The position numbers and the translations under genes were made by a program. The notes under the pieces were generated by a model. It did no database searches. It was not told the DNA's origin and worked only from the letters and a program-made list of their open reading frames with translations. Below, one piece after another: positions 12,492 to 25,066 of a DNA stretch of 37,197 nt; position 1 is the stretch's first letter; each line of letters begins with the position of its first letter. The DNA is from Acidobacteriota bacterium (GTDB lineage Bacteria > Acidobacteriota > Thermoanaerobaculia > Multivoradales > J023), in NCBI GenBank assembly GCA_029263395.1, contig JAJCXO010000277.1, positions 1 to 37,197 on the forward strand, given 5' to 3'.

Positions 12492-12508
12492 CTGAGGTCA
12501 AGCCTCAG
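12492..12508. terminator. hairpin at a convergent gene junction
   Basis: CTGAGG (12492-12497) pairs with CCTCAG (12503-12508) around TCAAG. It spans the stop codon of the minus-strand phosphatase gene, 27 bp after the stop of the plus-strand GT2. A bidirectional terminator is plausible, but no T-run is present. Confidence 0.3.
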
Positions 12509-13758
12509 AGCTTGCGGACGACCAACGCTGTAAGGTCGTCATTCTGTGGCACTTCACCCGCAAACGAGATCACAGCGTTGTGCATTGCAGCAATGATCTC
12601 CTCCGCTGGCTGGTCCTTGTGCGTCCGGATCAGCTCCTGAAGCCGATCAATGCCGAACTGCTCCCCAAGTTGATTCTCCCATTCGAAGAAGCCATCGGTC
12701 AGCAACACCATGATGTCTCCAGAGACCATGTTGAAGTCTTCTGCGGCTGGCCACGGCACATCCGGGAAAATCCCAAGCGGGATGCCATGGGCATTCTGCC
12801 TCACAACCCGATCTTCCCCCGCCAGATAACGCAATACAGGGCCATGCCCAGCGCTCAAGAACGACAATGTGTCACCTTTGAGGAAGCCAAGCACTGCAGT
12901 GACCGAGCGACTGTCCGGCAAATCCTCATAGAGCAGCTGATTGACTCGACGAACCACCTCGGTCAGATCGTCAGTGACGAAGGTCGTGGCTCGGAAAAGG
13001 GAACGACAAGTTGCCATCATCAAGGCGGCGCCAATGCCGTGGCCGGTCGCGTCCGCCAGCACCAACGCAAGTGAGCCGCTCGGCAACACGTAATGATCCC
13101 AAAAATCGCCACCGGTATCGTCCGCTGGATCATTCCACCCGGCAATGTCGAATCCCGCCACCGTCGGGTCACCGTTCGGCAGCAACCCTTGCTGAATGCT
13201 CCGGGCCAGCTTGAGATCACGCTCGATCTGCTGCTTCTGGGCATAATGCTCAAGCAGAAGGTGGCGTTGGACGGCTACTCCAACCTGAGCGTCGAAGACC
13301 TTGATCAGCTCGTTGTCCCAAGGATCCAACGGCGGAATATTGTGGACTTGAAGGACACCCACAATGTTCTGCCCATCATCGAGCAGGGGCAACATCATCA
13401 AATTACAGGTTTCGGAGCTGGTGTCGGCATCGAGACCACTGTCGAATCGACTATCGATTGACGGCTGGTCGATTTCGAGCCGCTGACCGCTAGTCACAAC
13501 CTCGAGAGCCATCACCTTTTGCATTCGAAACCTTGGAACACCAGCGTCTTCCGGTCGCCACAGGGTATCTCGCCCGCGATCGTAGAGTAGAAGCGCCGCA
13601 TGCTCACACTCCAACACTTTGCAAGCGGCACGTTCCACCGCCAACACCAAGTGGGCAAGATTGTCGGTCACCGACAGCTCCAAGGAAACTTCCAGAACTG
13701 CCTGGAGGTCAGCGATGTGCTTCTGGTGGTCTATCGAAGGCTGGTGATGCTGATCCAT
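12505..13758 (-). CDS. GAF domain/SpoIIE-type PPM serine phosphatase
   Basis: A 417-residue cytoplasmic protein of RsbU-like layout. An N-terminal GAF domain (about residues 25-165) is followed by a short coiled coil (QQIERDLKLARSIQQGLLP), then a SpoIIE/PPM phosphatase domain (about 190-415). Metal-ligand motifs are intact: DDTGGDFWD, DATGHG, SAGHGP and LLTDGF. In known systems such phosphatases dephosphorylate STAS-domain anti-anti-sigma factors in partner switching. No STAS or RsbW gene is in this window, so the partner is elsewhere or different. The ATG at 13758 is preferred; a TTG at 13773 would add five residues. It is divergent from the pseudokinase receptor at 14010, and a shared signal is possible. 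Confidence 0.9.
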   Translation of the reverse strand: MDQHHQPSIDHQKHIADLQAVLEVSLELSVTDNLAHLVLAVERAACKVLECEHAALLLYDRGRDTLWRPEDAGVPRFRMQKVMALEVVTSGQRLEIDQPSIDSRFDSGLDADTSSETCNLMMLPLLDDGQNIVGVLQVHNIPPLDPWDNELIKVFDAQVGVAVQRHLLLEHYAQKQQIERDLKLARSIQQGLLPNGDPTVAGFDIAGWNDPADDTGGDFWDHYVLPSGSLALVLADATGHGIGAALMMATCRSLFRATTFVTDDLTEVVRRVNQLLYEDLPDSRSVTAVLGFLKGDTLSFLSAGHGPVLRYLAGEDRVVRQNAHGIPLGIFPDVPWPAAEDFNMVSGDIMVLLTDGFFEWENQLGEQFGIDRLQELIRTHKDQPAEEIIAAMHNAVISFAGEVPQNDDLTALVVRKL

Positions 13759-13948
13759 CGTCCAGATTCTCAATGCCTTGCCATATCCAGGGCTCTATGA
13801 TCGGTTCAATTGACTGCAACTATACGCCATTGCTGCTGGCAGTATTCAATCCGAACCCGTCCTCTTGCTGCTGAAGAGCACGGCAGCCTGTTTGATAGAG
13901 TGCGAGCGCAGCTAACGTATCGATCGGTGCCAGGCGGACCTTCCCGCT

Positions 13949-13989: not shown

Positions 13990-14009
13990 ACCGAAAATGG
14001 GAGTCTGAC

Positions 14010-16610
14010 TTGGCCCGAAATGCCAGCGACAAGAGGTTCGAGATTTCTCTCGGCACCTGGATCTTTCTGATCATCGGGCTGCTCGTCCTGCTGACCGCGG
14101 GCGGGGCTTCGGTGGCCACGTGGATTCTCGGAGAACGATTCGCCGAAAGCTCCGCGACCAAGGCTCTGGAGGCTAGCCAGTCGACCCAGATCGTACTCCA
14201 GCAGGAGCGTTATCGACGCCTACAGCTAATCTCGAGAATTTTCGCCACCGACCGCCTGTTGACTTCCTACCTAGCGGATGCCGCGGAAGCCCGAGACCCA
14301 GTGTCGATTCTCGATGCTCTCGAGGAGTACCAAAACCTCCTGACGTTCGACCTGGCCGTAGTTCTCGATCAGCACGGGATCGTGCTCGGACGCACCGATG
14401 ACCGTCAAGCCTTTGGTGAGGACCTCTCAGGCGATCCAATTATCGCGGCCGCCCTGGAAGAAAAGCAGGCCTTTGGCGTCTGGCAGCAGGACCAGGACCT
14501 CTTTCACGCGGTGGCACTGCCGCTGGTGCGCAATTTTGACCAAGTCGGTTTCATCGTCGTCGCCTTGTCGATCAACGAGGCCCTGGCTCGCCAGATACAA
14601 CGCATCGGCGATGCCGATACGGTTTTCCTGATCAACTCGCCAACCGGGCCGGCGGTAGCGGCATCAACTCTTGATCCGGCCGCGGCAGCAGAACTCGTCT
14701 CTGGCCTGCGTCTCAAAGGGGAAATCCTCGGTCGGGTGACTCAGCGCGGAGAAACCGCCAACCGCGTCGACATCACTCTCCAAGAGCGCGATTGGGTGGC
14801 TTTTCTCGCACCTCTACGTGACGCTGCCGACAGATCTCTGGGCGCGATCATCACCTTGACCTCCTTCGACGAACGTCTCTCAGACTACCGTCTCCTGCAG
14901 CTCCTTCTAGCTGGCCTCGGGATCGCTGCCATGATTGCCGGCCTGTTGTTTTCGCAGGTCCTTTCGCGTCGATCTCTCAGACCTCTCGGGCAACTGGCGG
15001 ATGCAGCGCAACGGGCGAGTCAGGGTGATTATTCGGCTCCGTTACCAGCTGGTGGCCCAGGCCATATCGGACAACTCAGAAATTCTCTCGACGGCCTGTT
15101 CGAGGATCTCAGTGGCCAGCAGTCTCTCGACCTCTACGTCTCACGGGTGCAACGCTACCTTCCCGAGCCCGACAAAGGATCGACCCTAGCAAAGGCACAA
15201 GCTCGCCCGACCATCCTGCTAGCGGTCGAAATGCGACGGTTCGCCAATCCCAAGATCGGCTACGATCCAGAGGAGAATCTCGGCCGGTTGTCGCGCGATT
15301 TGCGACGTATCTCGACCGTCGCCAGCTCGCGCCAAGGCCGCCTCGACGCGGTGTATGGACACCGAGCGTTAGTGCTCTTCGATAGTGAAGGGGCACCGTT
15401 TCGTGCGCTTACGGCAGCAACCGAAATCCTCCACATGTTGTCTGAACGCGAGAACGTTTTTGACGAAGTTGAGCCACCCGTGGTGGCGCTGGCCGGTGGG
15501 TCCGTCGTCACCGGCTCGGTGGTGTGGGGAGATCGCCCGACGTCCGCCGTCGCCGGATTGCCAGTTCAGCTGCTCGAGTCGCTGCTCCGAGAGGCAACTC
15601 CGGGCGAGATTTATCTTTCCAAGAATATCCACGCTTTGCTCGCTGAGCTGTTTCAGAGCAGGAACGTCGAGGCCCGGGCACAACGCGGCTTGCTCAGTCC
15701 ACAGCCGCTGTTTGTGCTGACCGGCGAGATGGCCGCACAGGCGACCGGTTTCACGCCGACACCCTCCGCGGCTTCCCCGATAACAGATGAACGACGAAAT
15801 GTTTCCGATATTCAGCCAGGCGTCGTGCTCGGCGGCAGGTACGAGGTGATGGCCGAGTTCGGAGTCGGGCGGATGGGCTCGATTTTCAAAGCTCAAGACC
15901 GCGATCTTGGAGACATGGTGGTCTTGAAGATGCTCAGGCCTGAAGTCACAGCGGACTCCGCAAGGTTCGACCTGTTGATGCGGGTTGTGCAACAGGCCCG
16001 CAACCTGAGACACCCCAATGTGCTGGATGTTCTCGACTTCGGCGAAGTTGAAGGCATGCCCTATATTTCAGTGCAGTTCGTGCGCGCCTTGACGCTGCGA
16101 TACTTGCTCGAACAGGGTGGCAAACTGGACACCGCCGCAGCTCTCTACCTTGCACGACAGATCGGATGGGGATTAGCCGCGGCCCACCGAGAGAATCTGC
16201 TGCACCTCGGCTTGAAACCGGAGAACATCCTGGTCGAGCCTCAAGGCCGCGCCAAAGTGATGGACTTCGGTCTCTCTGCTGCGGCCACTGAAGTGACCTC
16301 CGCTGCGTCCTACCTAGCCCCCGAGCAGCTCGATGGGCGGGGCGGAGACGCTAGAACGGATATCTACGCAATGGGTGCCTTGCTCTATGAGTTACTCAGT
16401 GGCCAGGCGCCCTATCCGGGCTCGACAGTGGATGAGATTCGCCAGCAACATCTGATGCAAGACCCCACGCCGTTGGGCGCAATCATCGAAGATTCACTGC
16501 CAGAGCTCGAGCAGGTTATCGCGCGCTGCCTGAGCAAAGCGCCGGAGAGCCGCTATAGCTCCTTCGACGAGTTCTTGGCTGCACTCGCAAGTCTGCGCGA
16601 TGTTGCATGA
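14010..16610 (+). CDS. membrane sensor with HAMP, cyclase-like and pseudokinase domains
   Basis: An 866-residue receptor. TM1 is at residues 13-40, an extracytoplasmic sensor domain at about 41-290, TM2 at about 296-318 and HAMP at about 319-370. A class III cyclase-like domain (about 395-570) lacks obvious metal aspartates. A Ser/Thr kinase-like domain spans about 609-865. In it the glycine loop (GVGRMG), K640 and DFG (752-754) are kept, but the HRDLKPEN motif reads HLGLKPEN (732-739), so the catalytic Asp is Gly. The alpha-C Glu position appears to be Val by eye. It is therefore probably a pseudokinase that may bind nucleotide and signal without phosphotransfer. The TTG start is chosen because GGGAG lies 6 bp upstream and the membrane helix follows at once. 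It is divergent from the SpoIIE-type phosphatase. Confidence 0.85.
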   Translation: MARNASDKRFEISLGTWIFLIIGLLVLLTAGGASVATWILGERFAESSATKALEASQSTQIVLQQERYRRLQLISRIFATDRLLTSYLADAAEARDPVSILDALEEYQNLLTFDLAVVLDQHGIVLGRTDDRQAFGEDLSGDPIIAAALEEKQAFGVWQQDQDLFHAVALPLVRNFDQVGFIVVALSINEALARQIQRIGDADTVFLINSPTGPAVAASTLDPAAAAELVSGLRLKGEILGRVTQRGETANRVDITLQERDWVAFLAPLRDAADRSLGAIITLTSFDERLSDYRLLQLLLAGLGIAAMIAGLLFSQVLSRRSLRPLGQLADAAQRASQGDYSAPLPAGGPGHIGQLRNSLDGLFEDLSGQQSLDLYVSRVQRYLPEPDKGSTLAKAQARPTILLAVEMRRFANPKIGYDPEENLGRLSRDLRRISTVASSRQGRLDAVYGHRALVLFDSEGAPFRALTAATEILHMLSERENVFDEVEPPVVALAGGSVVTGSVVWGDRPTSAVAGLPVQLLESLLREATPGEIYLSKNIHALLAELFQSRNVEARAQRGLLSPQPLFVLTGEMAAQATGFTPTPSAASPITDERRNVSDIQPGVVLGGRYEVMAEFGVGRMGSIFKAQDRDLGDMVVLKMLRPEVTADSARFDLLMRVVQQARNLRHPNVLDVLDFGEVEGMPYISVQFVRALTLRYLLEQGGKLDTAAALYLARQIGWGLAAAHRENLLHLGLKPENILVEPQGRAKVMDFGLSAAATEVTSAASYLAPEQLDGRGGDARTDIYAMGALLYELLSGQAPYPGSTVDEIRQQHLMQDPTPLGAIIEDSLPELEQVIARCLSKAPESRYSSFDEFLAALASLRDVA

Positions 16611-16679: not shown

Positions 16680-16696
16680 CACCAAGTGAGTTGGTG
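16680..16696. promoter_or_regulatory. inverted repeat upstream of the ECF sigma gene
   Basis: CACCAA (16680-16685) and TTGGTG (16691-16696) flank GTGAG, 32 bp before the preferred ATG of the sigma gene. It may be an operator or a leader hairpin. Confidence 0.3.
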
Positions 16697-16728
16697 TGCC
16701 GCTGAAATGGCCACCACCGGAACCTGCG

Positions 16729-17334
16729 ATGACGGAGAGCCCCCAGGAACACGAGCATGATCCCGATCGAGACATCCTGGATAGGGTGGCCGGCGGCGAC
16801 ATCGAGTCGTTTGCTGTTCTGGTTGGGCGCCACGAACAACGCCTCGTGGGCTTGTGTGAGCGAATGCTGCACCACCCGGAGGAAGCGCGTGACGCTGCAC
16901 AAGAAGTGTTCCTCAAGGTCTTCCGCAAGGCAGGGACCTACCGTCCTCGGGGTAAGGTCTACACATGGCTGTATCGCATTGCAGTCAATCACTGCCTGAA
17001 CTTGCTGCGTCGCCGCAAGCTGGCAAAATTCTTGTCCTTCGGCGAGGCCGGCGGAACACAACCCGATTACGGAGACGACCACACCACTTTCGATCCAGAA
17101 GACTCGGCTCCTGATGCAGAAAACCGTTTGGCCTCGAAGCGACGATGGCACGAAACACGACGCCAGATCGACGCTTTGCCTTCCGGTCAGCGCGCTGTTC
17201 TGGTGTTAGCAAAATTCGAAAACCTCTCCTACCGTGAAATCGCAGAAGTTTTGGAGATCACCGAAGGTGCAGTCGAGAGCAGATTGTTCCGAGCCATGCA
17301 ACGGCTGAGAGCACCGCAAGAAAACCGAGAGTGA
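16729..17334 (+). CDS. RpoE-like ECF sigma factor
   Basis: A 201-residue sigma-70-family factor with only regions 2 and 4. Region 2 has EEARDAAQEVFLKVFRKA and KVYTWLYRIAVNHCLN (about residues 50-95). Region 4 has LPSGQRAVLVLAKFE, then the helix-turn-helix SYREIAEVLEITEGAVESRL (about 145-190). An acidic linker of about 35 residues joins them. The ATG at 16729 is used; a GTG at 16696 would add a proline-rich 11-residue extension not typical of the family. The next two genes encode a single-pass membrane protein and a periplasmic Spy-like protein. This order is typical of an ECF factor held by a membrane anti-sigma factor. It probably responds to an envelope signal and may autoregulate. Confidence 0.93.
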   Translation: MTESPQEHEHDPDRDILDRVAGGDIESFAVLVGRHEQRLVGLCERMLHHPEEARDAAQEVFLKVFRKAGTYRPRGKVYTWLYRIAVNHCLNLLRRRKLAKFLSFGEAGGTQPDYGDDHTTFDPEDSAPDAENRLASKRRWHETRRQIDALPSGQRAVLVLAKFENLSYREIAEVLEITEGAVESRLFRAMQRLRAPQENRE

Positions 17335-17362
17335 TGTGTTTCACTCCCAAGAGGCCAACGCC

Positions 17363-17902
17363 ATGAACCACGACAAGCGACAACTGATGCGTCTCCTGCA
17401 TGGAGAGCTGACAACAGAGGAAGCTGCACAGCTCGAGGCAAGGATCGAAGGTGACGACGAGTTGCGTGCGGCCTATGAGCACCTCGCGTCGACTTGGCAC
17501 AGCCTTGAACTGCCGACACCTCAACCGGTCCCACTCGAGTTTTCCAACAAGATCGGAGCCGCCGCGAAACAGCAGCTCGAGCTCGGATTGGGGCCCCTGC
17601 CAGCGCCGAGATGGTTTCGGACGGTGGCCGCAACAGCTCTCAGCACCGGCATCATCCTGGGGCTGTTGTTGGGAGGTACCTTCAGTGAAGCCGGGCTGAC
17701 AGCAGACTCGGCCCTTCAGGCTGGGGTCTTTCAGGTTGACGGCCTTAAGGTTGAGTCTCTGCAGGCTGAACTCGATCTCGGCCCACTCAGCCTGGCAGAA
17801 ATCTACTGGTTGTCGGTTGATGATCAGGAACTGCTGTTCACCGAGTCGGCGACAGACGAAGCACCAGCCACCACGACTTCGCCGGGAGGCTCGGTGCCGT
17901 GA
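17363..17902 (+). CDS. single-pass membrane anti-sigma factor (putative)
   Basis: A 179-residue protein starting 28 bp after the sigma gene. The N-terminal 60 residues are charged and helical (LMRLLHGELTTEEAAQLEARI), as in anti-sigma domains. One membrane helix lies at about residues 91-112, and a C-terminal extracytoplasmic tail of about 65 residues follows. The H-x3-C-x2-C zinc motif of many anti-sigma factors is absent, so this would be a non-zinc type. An ATG at 17363 with AAGAGG upstream is preferred to the GTG at 17336. The tail contains four 5-residue repeats (LQAGV, FQVDG, LKVES, LQAEL). The GTGA overlap with the next gene suggests a coupled unit. Function is inferred from topology and position. 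Confidence 0.75.
   Translation: MNHDKRQLMRLLHGELTTEEAAQLEARIEGDDELRAAYEHLASTWHSLELPTPQPVPLEFSNKIGAAAKQQLELGLGPLPAPRWFRTVAATALSTGIILGLLLGGTFSEAGLTADSALQAGVFQVDGLKVESLQAELDLGPLSLAEIYWLSVDDQELLFTESATDEAPATTTSPGGSVP
17714..17773 (+). repeat. 15-bp in-frame repeat in the anti-sigma gene
   Basis: Four 15-bp units start at 17714, 17729, 17744 and 17759, each with a core close to TNCAGGYTGA. They encode [LF]-[QK]-[AV]-x-x repeats in the predicted extracytoplasmic tail, which could form a small beta-solenoid-like strip. Confidence 0.5.
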
Positions 17903-18543
17903 AACGCCGGTGGCTTACGATTCTGCTGCTGATCTCTGTGGGTCTCAACGTAGGCCTGTTTGCTAGTCGCATCTTGCGGAAACCGGCAGAGGGAGTCGAT
18001 ACCGGCGAGCGAACAGTCGACAAGACTCGAGAGGCCACTGAGCGACTACCTAAAGTTGTTCAACGCATGGCACGGGAGCTTGGTCTCGAAGGAGCCAAAC
18101 GCGATGCCTTCGTAGATATTCAACGGGGATTCTTCGAGCAGACGATGGCGGCGCGAGGGCGTATGGCTAGTCTCCAGCTCGAAATCCGTCGCGAGATCAC
18201 CTCCACCGAGCCTAATCGCGACACGCTCGACGTCCTGCTGATCGAGCTTTCGGAAGCCCACACCGATCTCGAGCGAGCCTTTGTCAACAACTTGCTCGAT
18301 TCTCGAGAGTTGCTCGATGCCGAGCAGGAACGGCTTTTCATGCGATTCCTGCGCCGCATGCGCCACGTCCGCTCCGACCTCGAACGACGGTTTCGCGAAC
18401 GCTGGCAATCAGAGCTCGGTGGACGACAGCGACGACGCCCAACTCACAGACGTGCGCGACCGCCGGCCGAGAACGTCGAGCCCGAGGTTCGCCCGGACAA
18501 CTCTTCGTCGTCGGAGAGCACCGGACCCAATCCCTCGCGATAG
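17899..18543 (+). CDS. Spy/CpxP- or CnrX-like periplasmic protein
   Basis: A 214-residue protein with an N-terminal membrane anchor or uncleaved signal (residues 4-24). After it comes a long, highly charged alpha-helical region (about 45-170) of the heavy-metal-resistance/Spy type: LGLEGAKRDAFVDIQRGFFEQ, then EIRREIT and LLDAEQERLFMRFLRRM. The C-terminus is a disordered Arg/Pro/Ser tail. In CnrYXH-type systems a protein of this fold senses metal in the periplasm and controls the anti-sigma factor. Here a His cluster for metal is not evident, so the ligand is unknown and a chaperone role is equally possible. The GTG start overlaps the anti-sigma stop (GTGA). Confidence 0.78.
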   Translation: MKRRWLTILLLISVGLNVGLFASRILRKPAEGVDTGERTVDKTREATERLPKVVQRMARELGLEGAKRDAFVDIQRGFFEQTMAARGRMASLQLEIRREITSTEPNRDTLDVLLIELSEAHTDLERAFVNNLLDSRELLDAEQERLFMRFLRRMRHVRSDLERRFRERWQSELGGRQRRRPTHRRARPPAENVEPEVRPDNSSSSESTGPNPSR

Positions 18544-18914: not shown

Positions 18915-19220
18915 ATGACTATTCACAAAGAGATCGTCCAAACGACCTTCTGCAGCCTCCTTTTCGTGACCTGTTTCGCCATCCTGAGCTCCACCGGCGA
19001 GACCACCTTAGCGATGGATTTTCGAGGATTAGCCGCGTCGAGCATTTTTTTGACTCCGAGCCCATCCGCTGATCCCGAACAGATCGAGATCGAACCCGAA
19101 GGCTTCAAGCTGGCAGCCGATCCCGAACAGATCGAGATCGAACCCGAAGGCTTCAAGCTGGCAGCCGATCCCGAACAGATCGAGATCGAACCCGAAGGCT
19201 TCAAACTGGTCCTGGTCTAG
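18915..19220 (+). CDS. small exported protein with three 16-residue repeats
   Basis: A 101-residue protein of no family I recognise. A basic start and hydrophobic stretch (about residues 9-27) suggest a signal peptide or membrane anchor. Residues 28-51 form a linker, and three tandem copies of ADPEQIEIEPEGFKLA fill residues 52-99. The last copy ends in V and is followed by LV and the stop. Unit 1 starts GCT instead of GCC, and unit 3 differs by AAA for AAG and GTC for GCA, so the duplication looks recent or homogenised. A good ribosome binding site (GGGAAGAAGAG) precedes the ATG, which supports real translation. It lies downstream of the sigma/anti-sigma/Spy-like genes and could be a target of that sigma factor, though this is not shown. 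Confidence 0.7.
   Translation: MTIHKEIVQTTFCSLLFVTCFAILSSTGETTLAMDFRGLAASSIFLTPSPSADPEQIEIEPEGFKLAADPEQIEIEPEGFKLAADPEQIEIEPEGFKLVLV
19068..19211 (+). repeat. three nearly identical 48-bp tandem repeats
   Basis: Units at 19068-19115, 19116-19163 and 19164-19211 are in frame and 48 bp each. Units 1 and 2 differ at one base; unit 3 differs at a few bases near its 3' end. This is the cleanest repeat in the window. Confidence 0.97.
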
Positions 19221-19482: not shown

Positions 19483-21903
19483 TCAACGAAGCGTTTCCGG
19501 TCCGACCTCCGCTCCGATCGCGACCTCGAACGTCTGGCTCCGCTCGGGATGTCCCCACGCATCATAAAGCTCAGCGATCCGTTGTCGAGATGCCCGTGTA
19601 TAGGCATGATCGCCTCGAACTTCTCGCAGATCTCGGTAGCCCTCGAGCAAGCAAGACTCCGCCTCTTCGAATCGACCTTCTTCGACCAGTAGCGCCCCGA
19701 GGTCACTCTTTGTGGCTGCAATTCTCCAATGTCCTGGCGGTTTGTCGCGACTCAAGACTTCGAAAACCCGCGTCAGAATCGCCCGGGCTGCAACCAAGTC
19801 ACCTTCCGCCAACAACAACAATCCCAGGTTGCGTTCACTCCACACAAGGTCGGCATGATCACTGGTTAGTCTTTGACGGAGTATCTCGAGAGCACGCTGA
19901 AAATGCCGCTCCGCTTGCCAGTGATCACCTTGCGCGAAACGAATACGTCCCAGAAGATCGAGGACCGAAGCAACATCCGTGTGGTCTGGACCGTAGGCGC
20001 GAAGCCGAATTGCCAGGGCTTCGCGCACCATCGGCTCCGCGGCCACGGAGTCTCCACGGGCGTGCAGAACCGCCCCGAGGCTGCGTAGACTTTTGGCTAC
20101 CTGAGGGTCATCACGACCCAGTAGTCGTTGACGGATCTCGAGGCCTTTTCTGTAGAACCCCTCGGCATCATCATAATCGCCGCGATAAAGCGAGATGGTT
20201 GCCAAGTTGTTGAGATTGACGACGTAATTGGGCGATGTGTCGCCTAATTGATCGCGCAGCATCAACGCTTCCCGCAGAGCCTTTTCTGCCGCATCATAGT
20301 CTCCACGCTCGAGATGTAAGGCTCCAAGATTGTTGAATCTGGCGGCGAGGCCGGAGAGGTCGTCAGGCCGCTGAACTTGCCACAGTTCCAACGACTCTCG
20401 CGAAACCTCTAGCGCTTTTTCCGAATTCCCGAGTGCATGGTGTATACGCCCTAACGTGGCCAGTAACTCAGCTTGTAACTCGGGCTCAGCCTCGAGCACC
20501 GTCAGCTCGTCGCGGACACGCTCAAGGGACCGGATGATGGTTGCATCATCCCGTCGGTCGGGATCAGCAATATTCAACAGCCCACGCAATACTTCTGTGA
20601 TGCGCTGCGCACGTTGGCGCTCGGTCTCGAGCCGCTGCTTCTCGCGTACCAGTAAACCTGTCGCCACCAGTAGCACGATCATCGCCGCACACAGTCCCCA
20701 CCGATGTCGGCGAAAGAACTTTCCCCCACGATAGAGCATCGTGCCCTTACGCGCGGTGACCGGCAAACCAGCCAGATGCCGACGAATATCTTCGGAGAAT
20801 TGCTCAACCGAGGCATAACGATGCTGGGGCTCCTTGCGCAACGCCTTCAACAAGATCGCATCGACATCACCCACCAGGCTCCGGCGGAGCTTGTCGACAT
20901 CTCCATCGCGCGAACGGCTCACCGACTCTGGTGTCCACCGTCGAATGCCGGCGGAGGTTCCGATCTCTTCGGTACGACCGACGACTAGGCTGGGTTTGAC
21001 CGGCTCTTGCTCGACGATACGCCATGCGATCTCCCCGAAGCGACAGCTTTCCACCCCACAGGGTAAGCGGCCCGCCAGCAGTCTGTAGAGCAGCGTCCCC
21101 AATGAGTAGATATCGCTGGCTGTAGTGATCGGCTGGCGCTTGACCTGCTCTGGGCTGGCGAAGCGCGGAGTCATCGGTTGCTCGTGCCCACGGGTGAGAT
21201 CACGACGCATCGCCTCTTCATCGTCCAACAACTTGGCGATGCCAAAATCGAGCAGCTTGGGCAAGCCTTCCGGGGTGATCAGGATGTTGCCCGGCTTGAG
21301 GTCACGGTGTACCACCAAGTTCTGATGTGCAAAAGCGAGTGCCGAGCACACGCCAAGAAACAGCTCTAATCGTTTCCGTGTAGACAGTTGATGGGTATCG
21401 CAGTACTCGTCGACCGGTACCCCTTCGACATACTCCATGACCAGGAATGGGCGTCCATCGTTTGTGGTACCGCCATCGAGCAGGCGAGCGATCGATGGAT
21501 GTTCGAGTCGGGCCAGGATCTGGCGCTCATTGTGAAATCGACGAACGGTCGCCTCGCTCACCAGGTCCCGTTGAAGTAGTTTCAACGCCACCTGCTTTTC
21601 GAAATCGTCCTGACGCACCGCCCGATAGACGGCCCCCATGCCACCGCGCCCAAGCAGGTCGAGAATCCGATAGGGCCCGATTCGTTTGCCTTTCTCGAGC
21701 ATCGATTCGGCATCGAGCGGCACCGCCGGCTCGGGCAGAAAACCTTCGGCTTCCTCTTCCAGATCAAGCAAAGACTCGACTTCACGACGTAAGGCAGCAT
21801 CGTTACCGCAAGCTTGCCCAAGGAACGCCGGCCTCGACCCAGGCGGCTCCGAGAGTGTTGCATCGAGCAACTCCATCACGCGCCGCTGACGAGTCTTCGT
21901 CAC
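19483..21903 (-). CDS. receptor-type Ser/Thr protein kinase with TPR repeats
   Basis: An 806-residue PknB-type kinase. The N-terminal helical segment (residues 1-60) is typical of the TPR-kinase family in Acidobacteriota. The kinase domain spans about residues 76-375 with LGRGGMGAVY, the VALK lysine, an alpha-C Glu (NERQILARLEHP), HRDLKPGNIL (about 199-208), DFGIAKLL and ASPEQ. All catalytic residues are present, so it should be active. One membrane helix (about 400-418) precedes an extracytoplasmic-side TPR array (about 470-790) of the kinesin-light-chain-like kind. The GTG start shares one base with the TAG stop of the ECF sigma gene upstream (TAGTG), so translation is probably coupled and the sigma factor may be its partner. 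Confidence 0.93.
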   Translation of the reverse strand: MTKTRQRRVMELLDATLSEPPGSRPAFLGQACGNDAALRREVESLLDLEEEAEGFLPEPAVPLDAESMLEKGKRIGPYRILDLLGRGGMGAVYRAVRQDDFEKQVALKLLQRDLVSEATVRRFHNERQILARLEHPSIARLLDGGTTNDGRPFLVMEYVEGVPVDEYCDTHQLSTRKRLELFLGVCSALAFAHQNLVVHRDLKPGNILITPEGLPKLLDFGIAKLLDDEEAMRRDLTRGHEQPMTPRFASPEQVKRQPITTASDIYSLGTLLYRLLAGRLPCGVESCRFGEIAWRIVEQEPVKPSLVVGRTEEIGTSAGIRRWTPESVSRSRDGDVDKLRRSLVGDVDAILLKALRKEPQHRYASVEQFSEDIRRHLAGLPVTARKGTMLYRGGKFFRRHRWGLCAAMIVLLVATGLLVREKQRLETERQRAQRITEVLRGLLNIADPDRRDDATIIRSLERVRDELTVLEAEPELQAELLATLGRIHHALGNSEKALEVSRESLELWQVQRPDDLSGLAARFNNLGALHLERGDYDAAEKALREALMLRDQLGDTSPNYVVNLNNLATISLYRGDYDDAEGFYRKGLEIRQRLLGRDDPQVAKSLRSLGAVLHARGDSVAAEPMVREALAIRLRAYGPDHTDVASVLDLLGRIRFAQGDHWQAERHFQRALEILRQRLTSDHADLVWSERNLGLLLLAEGDLVAARAILTRVFEVLSRDKPPGHWRIAATKSDLGALLVEEGRFEEAESCLLEGYRDLREVRGDHAYTRASRQRIAELYDAWGHPERSQTFEVAIGAEVGPETLR

Positions 21904-22499
21904 TACACAGCCTCGTCCTTTGGTCCAGCCTGACCTCGTTTGAGCTCGCGCAGTAGCCAGATTTTTGCCGTCTTCAGATCGCGTTTGACAGTCGCGGGAG
22001 ACACCTCGAGGGCGGTTGCAATCTCCTCGAACGTCAGGCCACCAAAATAGCTCAGCTCGATCGCTTCGCTCTGGCGAGGCGCGATGAATCCCAGTTCCTC
22101 GAGAGCGTCGTCGAGTGCGATCAGATCAACATCGACCTTGATCGGCAGCCCCAACGCTTCCTCGAGCGGTATAGGGGGCTGACCACTGCCATGGCGAGCG
22201 GCTTTTTTACGCCGTGCGTGGTCGACCAGGATCCGGCGCATGGTCTCTGCCAACACCGCAAAAAACTGCACTCGATTCTCGAGTTGTACTTGGCGGCGCC
22301 CGACGAGACGCAGGTAAGCTTCGTGAACCAGAGCCGTCGGCTCGAGCGTGTGGCCGGGAGTTTCGCGCGCCAGATAACCCCGTGCGAGGGCACGCAAATC
22401 TCCGATGACCAAAGGCATCAGCCTGTCGAGTGCTTGACGATCGCCGGCACTCCAGGCGTCGAGCAGTTCTGATACTTGCCGCGCCGCGACCTGTGTCAT
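21903..22499 (-). CDS. ECF sigma factor, Acidobacteriota/Planctomycetota type
   Basis: A 198-residue sigma factor of the group annotated as ECF-subfamily Sigma70_ECF (TIGR02999-like). Region 2 has PTALVHEAYLRLVG and VQFFAVLAETMRRILVDHAR. Region 4 has a helix-turn-helix with LTFEEIATALEVSPATVKRDL. Members of this group are often next to Ser/Thr kinases rather than classical anti-sigma factors, as here, and phosphorylation is thought to regulate some of them. AAGGA lies just before the ATG. It is divergent from a paralog at 22723 with the same arrangement. Confidence 0.93.
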   Translation of the reverse strand: MTQVAARQVSELLDAWSAGDRQALDRLMPLVIGDLRALARGYLARETPGHTLEPTALVHEAYLRLVGRRQVQLENRVQFFAVLAETMRRILVDHARRKKAARHGSGQPPIPLEEALGLPIKVDVDLIALDDALEELGFIAPRQSEAIELSYFGGLTFEEIATALEVSPATVKRDLKTAKIWLLRELKRGQAGPKDEAV

Positions 22500-22722: not shown

Positions 22723-23307
22723 ATGCGTCGCCCTTCACCTTACGAGATCACCCAGATGCTTCGCGAGTGGCGCGGTGGTGACCACCGAGCCGAGGAAGAA
22801 CTCTGGCCGATCATCTACCAAGAGCTTCGGAGCCTGGCCAGAAGCGTCATTCGGAAACGTACCGGCAGTCAACAGTTGGGGGCAACGACCCTCGTGCACG
22901 AAGCCTACCTCCGTCTCGTCGGTTCAACTTCGACCATCGATTGGAATGATCGAGGACATTTCTTCGCGATTGCAGCACGCGCTATGCGTTATGTGCTGGT
23001 CGACGAAGCCCGACGACGACTGACGATGAAACGGGAAGGGGATGCTGTCAAGGCAGACCTTCCAGAGCATATTGCCGATCCCGTTGACCATCGACCAGAG
23101 GATATCTTGGCGGTCCACGAAGCTCTAACTCGTCTGGCAAAGGTCAACCCTCGCCACGAACGTCTCGTGGAAGCCCGTTACTTTGCCGGTTTGTCGGTGG
23201 AAGAGACTGCTGATGCACTGAACGTCTCCCGGCCTACGGTAGTGCGCGATTGGCGCGCGGTGAGGACTTGGCTCTATGGCGAGCTCCAGCGACAACCCCA
23301 GACCTGA
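22723..23307 (+). CDS. ECF sigma factor, second copy
   Basis: A 194-residue paralog of the sigma factor at 21903-22499. The diagnostic blocks repeat: TTLVHEAYLRLVG, GHFFAIAARAMRYVLVDEAR and the helix-turn-helix LSVEETADALNVSRPTVVRDW. The ATG at 22723 matches the usual N-terminus (ITQMLREWRGGD). The frame is open further up to 22591, but that part is AT-rich and carries the inverted repeat, so it is probably leader. No strong ribosome binding site is visible. Its 3' end overlaps the next kinase gene by 32 bp, a tight coupling that mirrors the minus-strand module. Confidence 0.92.
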   Translation: MRRPSPYEITQMLREWRGGDHRAEEELWPIIYQELRSLARSVIRKRTGSQQLGATTLVHEAYLRLVGSTSTIDWNDRGHFFAIAARAMRYVLVDEARRRLTMKREGDAVKADLPEHIADPVDHRPEDILAVHEALTRLAKVNPRHERLVEARYFAGLSVEETADALNVSRPTVVRDWRAVRTWLYGELQRQPQT

Positions 23308-25066
23308 TCACGGTCCGCAGGGGTTCGATGCGAGTTGGGACTCGGGATCCTGTCGCGAGTTCGCCACCAGGCAACAGCTCCGGATCGACGAAATTGTCCT
23401 CACCGCAGCCGGCCTCGAGACCGGTCAACGCGAAGCTTTCCTCAGTTGCCTCGCTCGAACTGAGCCCGACCTCATGCAAGAAGCCCAACGACGGTTGCGC
23501 TGCGCAGCCGATCTCCCGACCGGCTTCTTGGCGGTTCCCGCAGCCGAAATCCTCGACCCCTTGGATCGCCAAGCTGAAACCGAAACACAGGTTTTGTCGA
23601 CGACGATCGCCAGCGTCGAACGCTATGAAATCCAAGAATGCCTGGGCGAAGGCGGTATGGCGAGGGTGTATAAGGCTTTTGACCGGCACCTCCGCCGTCC
23701 GGTTGCACTCAAGTTGCTCAAACGGACCGACAGCAAGACGCTGCACCGTTTTCTGCGGGAGGCACAGACCCAAGCCAGAGTTCGCCACGAATATGTCCTC
23801 AATGTTCACGAAACCGGCGAGCTCGGGGATCAACCCTACATCGCCATGCACTACGTCAACGGTCCGACGTTGATGGCAATCCGTGACAAAACATCTCTGG
23901 AGCAGAAGGTGCGACTGATGGCCCAGGTTGCGGAAGGACTCCACGCTGCCCACCGCGAAGGCCTGGTTCACCGTGACGTCAAGCCCTCGAATATCCTGGT
24001 CGAGAGAACCCCTGACGGCAAACTGAGACCTTGGGTCGCCGATTTTGGTATCGCGATGATGATCGACGACGGTTCCATTTGGAGCGCCGCACATGCTGGA
24101 ACGCCGTTCTACATAGCCCCCGAAAGGCTCAGTGACGAGCGCGATGTCGATGTCCGCAGCGACATCTACAGCCTAGGGGTCACGCTTTACCAATTTCTTT
24201 GTGGTGAGTTGCCCTTCGACCACCCAAGCCTCGGCGAGATGTTGCGCCAGGTCCGGGAAGACGAGCCCATCTCGCTTCGAGCCCGGAACCCGTCCCTGCC
24301 GACAGAGCTCGAGGCAGTGACGATGAAATGCTTGGCGAAGCGGCCTGATCAGCGTTATCCAACAGCGCGAGCAGTTGCCAACGACCTTTGGCGGTTTCTC
24401 GACGGTGAAGTCGTCGAAGCCCACGATTCGACGTTCACCTACCGCCTCAAACGATCCGCTCACAGGCGCACATTAATGCCAATAGCACTGGTTGGCGCTG
24501 CCCTGCTGGTGGGCGTCTTATCGACCATCGCTGTCTCTTCGACGATGCGAGCCAAACGTGCTGCAACGGAAGCAGTCACAGCACTCGACAGCCTGGCACT
24601 CCTGTTCAAGGACCAAGGACGGTATGCAGAGGCAGAGCAACTATACGCTCGCAACCTCGCGATTCGCGAAGAGCACCTGGGCAAAAACCACCCCAGCGTG
24701 GCGCAAGCATTGGTCAACTACTCGAACTTGTTGATCCAACAGGGAAAACACGTCGAGGCCGAGAAGAAAGTCCGCCAAGCCCTGAAGATCTTGTCGCAGT
24801 CCCTGCCGGAAAGTCATTGGCGACGAGCCTACGTCGAGAGCGTCCGTGGCGCGAGCCTCACAGGCCTAGGCCAATTCGAGGAAGCTGAATTGTTGTTACT
24901 CGCCGGATTCTCGACGGTCCGCGAGCAAACAGGACTCGCATCGCTACCCACCCGTGAAATTGCCGAGCATCTCGTCAACCTATACGAAGCCTGGGAACGA
25001 GACGAACGCGCCGACGAATACCGTGCTCTGCACCGCGCCGCCACACTCAGCACCAACGACTCATGA
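23276..25066 (+). CDS. Ser/Thr protein kinase with short TPR region
   Basis: A 596-residue kinase. After an N-terminal helical segment, the kinase domain (about residues 120-385) shows LGEGGMARVYKA, the VALK lysine, REAQ for the alpha-C Glu, HRDVKPSNIL (232-241), VADFGIAMM and AGTPFYIAPERL, all intact. A membrane helix at about 403-422 is followed by roughly three TPR-like units (EAEQLYARNLAIREEHLG and EAEKKVRQAL). It is a shorter relative of the minus-strand kinase. The gene overlaps the sigma gene upstream and the GT4 gene downstream (ATGA). It is thus physically locked between a transcription factor and a glycan enzyme, each a candidate substrate or target. Confidence 0.93.
   Translation: MASSSDNPRPDHGPQGFDASWDSGSCREFATRQQLRIDEIVLTAAGLETGQREAFLSCLARTEPDLMQEAQRRLRCAADLPTGFLAVPAAEILDPLDRQAETETQVLSTTIASVERYEIQECLGEGGMARVYKAFDRHLRRPVALKLLKRTDSKTLHRFLREAQTQARVRHEYVLNVHETGELGDQPYIAMHYVNGPTLMAIRDKTSLEQKVRLMAQVAEGLHAAHREGLVHRDVKPSNILVERTPDGKLRPWVADFGIAMMIDDGSIWSAAHAGTPFYIAPERLSDERDVDVRSDIYSLGVTLYQFLCGELPFDHPSLGEMLRQVREDEPISLRARNPSLPTELEAVTMKCLAKRPDQRYPTARAVANDLWRFLDGEVVEAHDSTFTYRLKRSAHRRTLMPIALVGAALLVGVLSTIAVSSTMRAKRAATEAVTALDSLALLFKDQGRYAEAEQLYARNLAIREEHLGKNHPSVAQALVNYSNLLIQQGKHVEAEKKVRQALKILSQSLPESHWRRAYVESVRGASLTGLGQFEEAELLLLAGFSTVREQTGLASLPTREIAEHLVNLYEAWERDERADEYRALHRAATLSTNDS

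Follow-up and report, generated by a model that had tools for sequence, protein, structure and literature searches.

The 37,197-nucleotide window analysed here, the whole stretch taken from an Acidobacteriota contig, encodes a membrane receptor (positions 14010-16610, forward strand) in which two enzyme folds, a class III nucleotide cyclase fold and a PknB-like kinase fold, both appear to have lost catalysis. A cassette for an extracytoplasmic function (ECF) sigma factor, an anti-sigma-like protein and a Spy-like protein lies directly downstream of the receptor gene. The best explanation, which we hold with somewhat less than even confidence, is a non-catalytic membrane receptor with two dead enzyme folds, working by conformation on the ECF cassette. 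From N- to C-terminus, the receptor consists of a transmembrane (TM) helix, a dCache_3 sensor, a second TM helix, HAMP, the cyclase fold and the kinase fold, and it is probably dimeric. The original prediction, made from the DNA letters alone, had described a membrane receptor with HAMP, and Pfam matches to dCache_3 and HAMP agree with it, as do TM helices recognised by eye. The home assembly comprises 10.68 Mb in 291 contigs, and the relatives that could be named are Acidobacteriota metagenome bins, several of them labelled Thermoanaerobaculia. The sequence GGGAG (13999-14003) is located six bases 5' of the TTG start of the gene. The features of the gene are:

14010-16610, forward strand: gene of the putative receptor pseudokinase, 866 amino acids from a TTG start, 866 codons open; ortholog in 7/7 examined genomes of the family
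14052-14123, forward strand: first TM helix, approximately residues 15-38 (hydrophobic stretch by eye; helix 14-80 in the model)
14205-14843, forward strand: dCache_3 extracytoplasmic sensor, residues 66-278 (Pfam PF14827, E 4.1e-8)
14889-14966, forward strand: second TM helix, approximately residues 294-319 (hydrophobic stretch by eye; helix 286-337 in the model)
14958-15110, forward strand: HAMP, residues 317-367 (Pfam PF00672, E 4.3e-8)
15159-15737, forward strand: class III cyclase homology domain, apparently catalytically dead, residues 384-576 (profile, model, D/D/N/R replaced by E/H/Q/S)
15831-16595, forward strand: apparent pseudokinase domain, residues 608-862 (Pfam PF00069, Pkinase 611-850, E 8.7e-37; Foldseek PknB/PknA)
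15927-15929, forward strand: Lys640, the beta-3 lysine, kept (alignment)
15984-15986, forward strand: Val659 in the alpha-C Glu column (alignment)
16203-16211, forward strand: HLG (732-734) replacing HRD, with Gly734 for the catalytic Asp (alignment)
16272-16316, forward strand: shortened activation segment without the GTPxY motif (alignment)

The kinase domain of the window protein appears to be a pseudokinase by its sequence. Aligned with StkP and 35 other family members, it keeps Gly618, Gly620, Gly623, Lys640, Lys736, Asn739, and DFG (752-754), so that the glycine loop, beta-3 Lys and DFG of an active kinase are present, and it has lost the alpha-C Glu (Val659), the HRD Arg (Leu733) and the HRD Asp (Gly734), the motif at 732 reading HLGLKPEN. 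The original prediction had named the kept and the lost residues, the alpha-C Val with some reserve, and had proposed an alignment at the HRD and alpha-C positions as a check; the alignment bears it out on every residue with the same numbering, and Gly734, Val659 and their immediate neighbours include no acidic residue. The prediction did not include the missing HRD Arg or the shortened activation segment, nor the dead cyclase in relatives and the ECF cassette described below. The spacing from DFG to APE is 15 residues, compared with 24-25 in seven paralogs and 22-25 in 22 relatives from the same order, leaving the activation segment about ten residues short, and the GTPxY motif before APE, read by eye, is gone from the window kinase and present in 29/29 order relatives and paralogs. 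The kinase fold itself is intact in the predicted structure, with PknB and PknA as the top Foldseek matches (TMt up to 0.91 among those listed). Absence of the HRD Asp places the domain within the definition of a pseudokinase as a kinase fold missing at least one of beta-3 Lys, HRD Asp and DFG Asp, given in a review (PMC12599244). The GLW pseudokinase family described in the same source is characterised by GLW in place of HRD and by a bulky residue at the beta-3 Lys position, and the window protein has HLG and Lys640.

A sequencing error is unlikely because the ortholog in the same-genus genome G001 (82% identical) has the same HLG and the same alpha-C Val. Such losses are rare in the home genome, where the HRD Asp is kept in 144/146 other kinase matches, the beta-3 Lys in 139/140 and the DFG Asp in 143/145. 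This census used 146 of 150 scored matches, omitting the window itself and three pieces without the HRD region; the search scored 150 of 183 candidates and may miss weaker kinase-like domains. One further case in the census (G000:C257:46847-48358; L220, L106) is a kinase-like stretch without the Asp of HRD or of DFG; an intact kinase domain follows it directly, both lie in open frames of 1046 amino acids, and the pair is possibly a tandem pseudokinase-kinase.

Residual or unusual catalysis in the window protein, whether ATP binding, slow phosphate transfer or some other chemistry, seems unlikely. SelO and SidJ are kinase folds with other chemistry, and the glycine loop, Lys640, Lys736, Asn739 and DFG are kept, along with the HRD Asp in 2/7 orthologs. 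On the other hand, the positions of Gly734 and Val659 offer no acidic residue, and GTPxY is absent from 9/9 dead kinases of the group described below compared with its presence in all 29 intact ones.

The middle domain has a real class III cyclase fold, as judged from sequence profiles and a predicted structure, and appears to be catalytically dead. Pfam recognises no cyclase family in the middle domain of any of 35 members, the window included, and the fold is visible only through a 35-member profile and the predicted structure. The profile of the 35 relatives' middle domains matches cyclases in the PDB (2w01, E 6.2e-13, the best; 3r5g, E 5.7e-9). The predicted structure of the middle domain, with a predicted local distance difference test (pLDDT) score of 84.6, matches 2w01 in Foldseek (E 4.2e-12), and a VIA alignment of this model to CyaB (3r5g) gave a Z of 22.4 and a root-mean-square deviation of 2.0 over 180 aligned positions. 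An atypical cyclase-like domain between HAMP and the kinase had been proposed, together with a profile search and structure prediction to check it, and these recovered both the cyclase fold and the PknB/PknA kinase fold. A PF00211 scan of the home genome found eight places, none of them in the window's contig. The cyclase catalytic positions D, D, N, and R (two metal Asp, Asn and Arg) are E, H, Q, and S in the window protein; the fold of a class III nucleotide cyclase is present without any of these four catalytic residues.

The dead state of the cyclase extends well beyond the window. Of the metal Asp pair the second is missing in 40/40 receptors, as is the Asn; these are 38/38 in the main table (7 orthologs, 7 paralogs, 21 relatives from the order and 3 from the class, with L036, whose middle domain is largely missing, left out) and the two receptors L241 and L242. 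Among the 38, the first Asp is kept in 10 and an Arg stands at the fourth place in two. Ten loci fetched from the phylum (L246-L255) show other arrangements. Four relatives without a kinase (L246-L249; open frames of 550-582 residues) consist of dCache, HAMP and cyclase, and all four have the full D, D, N, and R. In three others (L250-L252), a kinase is joined to a cyclase fold that retains the first Asp alone; L250 and L252 have an intact HRD, and L251 is cut before that motif. The last three (L253-L255) are dCache-HAMP-kinase proteins with HRD intact, an intact-looking kinase and nothing that matches the middle domain. A sole history of cyclase first and kinase added is unsupported, as L253-L255 have dCache, HAMP, and kinase without a matching middle domain. 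Sensor, cyclase and kinase have thus been combined in several ways, and the loci here are compatible with either order of joining, kinase to cyclase receptor or the reverse.

Within the tables examined, the cyclase appears dead wherever it is joined to a kinase. Because all 40 receptors have a dead cyclase, and most of them an intact kinase, the dead cyclase between HAMP and kinase is a long-standing trait of the family, and the death of the kinase is the newer change. The original prediction had called a sensor that signals through a cyclase-like domain to a dead kinase an unusual design; the architecture and the dead kinase stand, and the cyclase link, which the fold supports, is not special to this protein.

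The newer change is confined to a small group of relatives. All seven examined genomes of the window's family, in four genera, carry an ortholog of the window receptor (A) and a second copy, the paralog (B); in the home genome the two are about 36% identical and lie at separate loci. The orthologs have the alpha-C Glu in 0/7, the HRD Arg in 0/7 and the HRD Asp in 2/7 (G003 and G005), keep Lys640 and the DFG Asp in 6/7, and have 14-18 residues from DFG to APE, against 22-25 in catalytic relatives. Chance is excluded because the losses recur in the orthologs while 22/22 order relatives and 7/7 paralogs keep Asp and Glu (Arg in 27/29). Two second copies in another family, f7 (L241 in G012 and L242 in G020), are dead kinases too; they have HGR in place of HRD, Gly at the alpha-C Glu position and no GTPxY, and they keep Lys and DFG. 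The total is nine dead kinases, of which nine have lost the alpha-C Glu and the HRD Arg, nine lack GTPxY, and seven have lost the HRD Asp; the call of a pseudokinase in the original prediction is strengthened by these three lesions common to 9/9 proteins of one group.

With the kinase domain excluded, a 34-row tree recovered A as one clade (100/100) and B as another (99/95). In a tree of 38 rows, A formed a clade (99/98) and the nine dead kinases grouped together (89/98), with L241 and L242 on a long branch, and a shared origin of A and L241/L242 is likely. In the simplest history, Glu, Arg and the activation segment would have been lost early and the Asp later, once or more than once. Neither tree included L035 or L036; the other rows left out were L009 and L042, which repeat the window and L002, L048, a piece of the G003 gene L018, and L040, a 315-residue fragment. 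Among side observations, L241 (4663-7236) and L242 (4159-6690) represent an ECF-linked pseudokinase lineage of f7 in which the activation segment is shorter still. Two order relatives of family f4, L032 and L039, have HGD and HLD for HRD and are non-RD kinases that keep the Asp; they adjoin clade A on a weak branch (75/56) in the 34-row tree and not in the 38-row tree. The gene before paralog B in L002 (783-1499) encodes a small exported protein that by eye resembles a cupredoxin-type domain and might act together with the sensor of B.

An intact second copy is present in 9/9 genomes with a dead copy (seven B, and L033 and L034 in G012 and G020), and in genomes with one copy, as counted at E 1e-50, the aligned kinase is intact in 20/20. 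This pattern suggests a HER3-like arrangement, in which the dead receptor would partner the live paralog as an allosteric activator, a brake or a docking arm, for example bringing the live kinase to the cassette products. Receptor pseudokinases of the HER3 type are known in animals, as reported in PMC13259870. The presence of an intact copy in all nine genomes raises this alternative and lowers the best explanation, and we regard it as rather doubtful though the foremost rival. Against it, the pattern of dead and live copies is found in two families only and may reflect one or two events, the window receptor and B are divergent and located apart, and none of the intact second copies that could be scored adjoins the cassette (0/8).

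The cassette downstream of the receptor gene consists of three genes:

16696-17334, forward strand: ECF sigma factor, likely ATG start at 16729 (Pfam Sigma70_r2 and r4_2)
17336-17902, forward strand: membrane anti-sigma-like protein (NCBIfam NF052375, E 2.2e-9, 37.6 bits, below the cut-off of 100; hydrophobic helix by eye; conserved place)
17899-18543, forward strand: membrane-anchored Spy/Metal_resist-like periplasmic protein (Pfam PF13801, 25.6 bits, below the cut-off of 29.2 for CnrX/Metal_resist; conserved place)

A cassette in the same order and on the same strand is located 16-232 bases from 10 of the 22 testable catalytic order relatives, and one more is inverted (L065). In the same arrangement and range of distances it is also found beside six of the nine dead receptors, namely the A orthologs of the window, G001, G006, and G004 (4/7) and L241 and L242. 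The intact second copies that could be scored (six B and two of f7, the latter also counted among the 22 catalytic order relatives) are those of the 0/8 count above. In these counts, L237 and L243, which end at a contig edge, were left out and L236 was scored as lacking the sigma gene; the contig piece of L077 stops before the third cassette gene. Beyond the cassette come glycosyltransferase and sugar-transferase genes common to the window and the g4 genomes.

Kinases are known to control ECF systems, as EcfP and EcfK are phosphorylated by the neighbouring kinases PknT and PknS, and PknB acts on anti-sigma factors (PMC13147305, PMC8999054). The window resembles PknT/EcfP and PknS/EcfK (ECF43) in having a Hanks-type kinase gene adjoining an ECF sigma gene, and differs in its anti-sigma-like gene, its acidic region 2.2 and its dead kinase. 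Region 2.2 of the window sigma factor keeps acidic residues (EEARDAAQ, compared by eye with the DAED motif in PMC8999054), and ECF43-type factors have a region 2.2 without them. The ECF43 mechanism is a misfit because of these acidic residues, and it is more likely that the receptor acts through the anti-sigma-like protein.

The non-catalytic receptor would work as follows. A ligand or stress sensed at the dCache domain would change the HAMP and pseudo-cyclase part, and this change would expose or hide a surface of the pseudokinase, perhaps with ATP as a structural cofactor, which is conceivable because the domain retains its glycine loop, Lys640 and DFG. The pseudokinase surface would bind the anti-sigma-like protein or the sigma factor and set sigma release without phosphotransfer of its own, whereas in catalytic relatives the same receptor probably phosphorylates the same cassette. 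The window protein is most likely a non-catalytic receptor of the cassette, either alone or with its live paralog, with an output that we infer.

A different output would be a kinase-less switch, formed by the pseudokinase and the divergent GAF-SpoIIE phosphatase encoded at 12505-13773 (reverse strand). The phosphatase gene, of the SpoIIE type by Pfam, is adjacent to and divergent from the receptor gene in both the window and G001. As it occurs in 1/20 of the other neighbourhoods compared (G001 being the one), the SpoIIE neighbour was rejected as a general partner and the switch is very improbable.

Several observations weigh against the non-catalytic receptor of the ECF cassette. Its interaction and output are inferred, and the co-occurrence of dead and intact copies fits a paralog partner at least as well. 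The full-length model (pLDDT 76.9) has a predicted template modelling score (pTM) of 0.45, which makes the modelled arrangement of the domains unreliable. Pfam did not find HAMP in the G006 ortholog, or at the expected place in the G005 ortholog. The cassette is not beside three of the seven orthologs (G002, G003, and G005) or 11 of the 22 catalytic relatives. No clear covariation emerged between kinase state and the Ser/Thr residues of the sigma, anti-sigma-like and Spy-like proteins; one sigma column is Ser/Thr in 92% of other receptors' cassettes and in 2/4 of those of the window's family, in a comparison set that wrongly took in the cassettes of the dead receptors L241 and L242. The dead kinase is also less constrained than the live kinase of the paralog: between G000 and G001, of the same genus, the ratio of nonsynonymous to synonymous substitution rates (dN/dS) is 0.082 (bootstrap 0.048-0.132) for the A pseudokinase and 0.025 (0.011-0.044) for the B kinase, ratios that are rough given a dS of 0.6-1.8 over the A domains and about 1 overall. 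In genus g3, the G003 ortholog (G003:C304:24686-26453) is split by a frameshift, which is either decay or an assembly error, and the G005 ortholog also lacks the glycine loop, Lys640, Asn739 and the DFG Asp.

The damage in g3, together with the missing ECF link in three orthologs, would fit a gene on its way out in the window's family and without a present role. Such decay is quite improbable, as all 866 codons are open, the gene is kept in all seven of the family's examined genomes, across four genera, and dN/dS is 0.08-0.09 in both dead domains, with 0.090 (0.044-0.153) for the A pseudo-cyclase and, for comparison, 0.148 (0.087-0.221) for the B cyclase fold. Both dead domains are under purifying selection and neither is drifting freely. 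Tentatively, and short of calling it probable, we suggest that the lineage lost cyclase catalysis and then kinase catalysis, and that the doubly dead copies in two families stay by the ECF cassette with a live copy elsewhere. The route at the target would then be non-catalytic, with the dead receptor either simply binding there or serving the live paralog as a docking arm.

The receptor shares features with several known systems. With the receptor kinases PknB, PknA, and StkP, it has in common the kinase fold (28-33% identity over the first 30 Foldseek matches), the beta-3 Lys, the glycine loop and DFG, and it differs in lacking the HRD Asp, the HRD Arg, the alpha-C Glu and a normal activation segment. 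Its sensor is the dCache-HAMP-cyclase part on the N-terminal side, whereas the sensor in the PknB/PknA/StkP group is a C-terminal PASTA region. The class III cyclases Cya2, CyaB, and CyaC share the fold of the middle domain, all four of whose catalytic positions are replaced in the window; the dCache-HAMP-cyclase plan also occurs, with D, D, N, and R intact, in other Acidobacteriota. In animal receptor guanylyl cyclases, kinase and cyclase folds are also found on one chain, with the kinase dead and the cyclase live. In comparison, the domain order is reversed here, both folds appear dead in the window, and the dead one in catalytic relatives is the cyclase.

Bacterial pseudokinases have already been described, in seven families in a 2025 review (PMC12599244), the abstract of which calls their function largely untested. 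The ActPs1-3, GLW, CP1, DYD, and DLHK pseudokinases of that review share with the window a bacterial Ser/Thr kinase fold lacking at least one catalytic residue; the window protein differs from them in keeping Lys and DFG, losing HRD and having close relatives that are still catalytic. The main text of the review has no match for cyclase, HAMP, sigma or Acidobacteria. Among the titles and abstract openings searched, no receptor combining a dead cyclase fold with a dead kinase fold was found, a statement confined to that material. Live and dead versions of one receptor coexist within single genomes and also occur in sister families, and the likely target, the ECF cassette, is often next door, so the function of a dead kinase becomes directly testable by swapping versions on one reporter. 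Moreover, the cyclase fold has been retained across an order as a likely transmission module.

Other genes near the receptor include a kinase-TPR gene adjoining a Sigma70_ECF-type sigma gene (19483-22499, reverse strand) and another kinase-TPR gene (23276-25066, forward strand). In total, three kinase-fold genes (the receptor included) and two ECF sigma genes lie within about 11 kb of the window. A small open reading frame at 18915-19220, with a start that looks signal-like by eye, contains a 16-residue repeat in nearly three copies, encoded by a 48-base unit in 2.9 copies with 98% matches.

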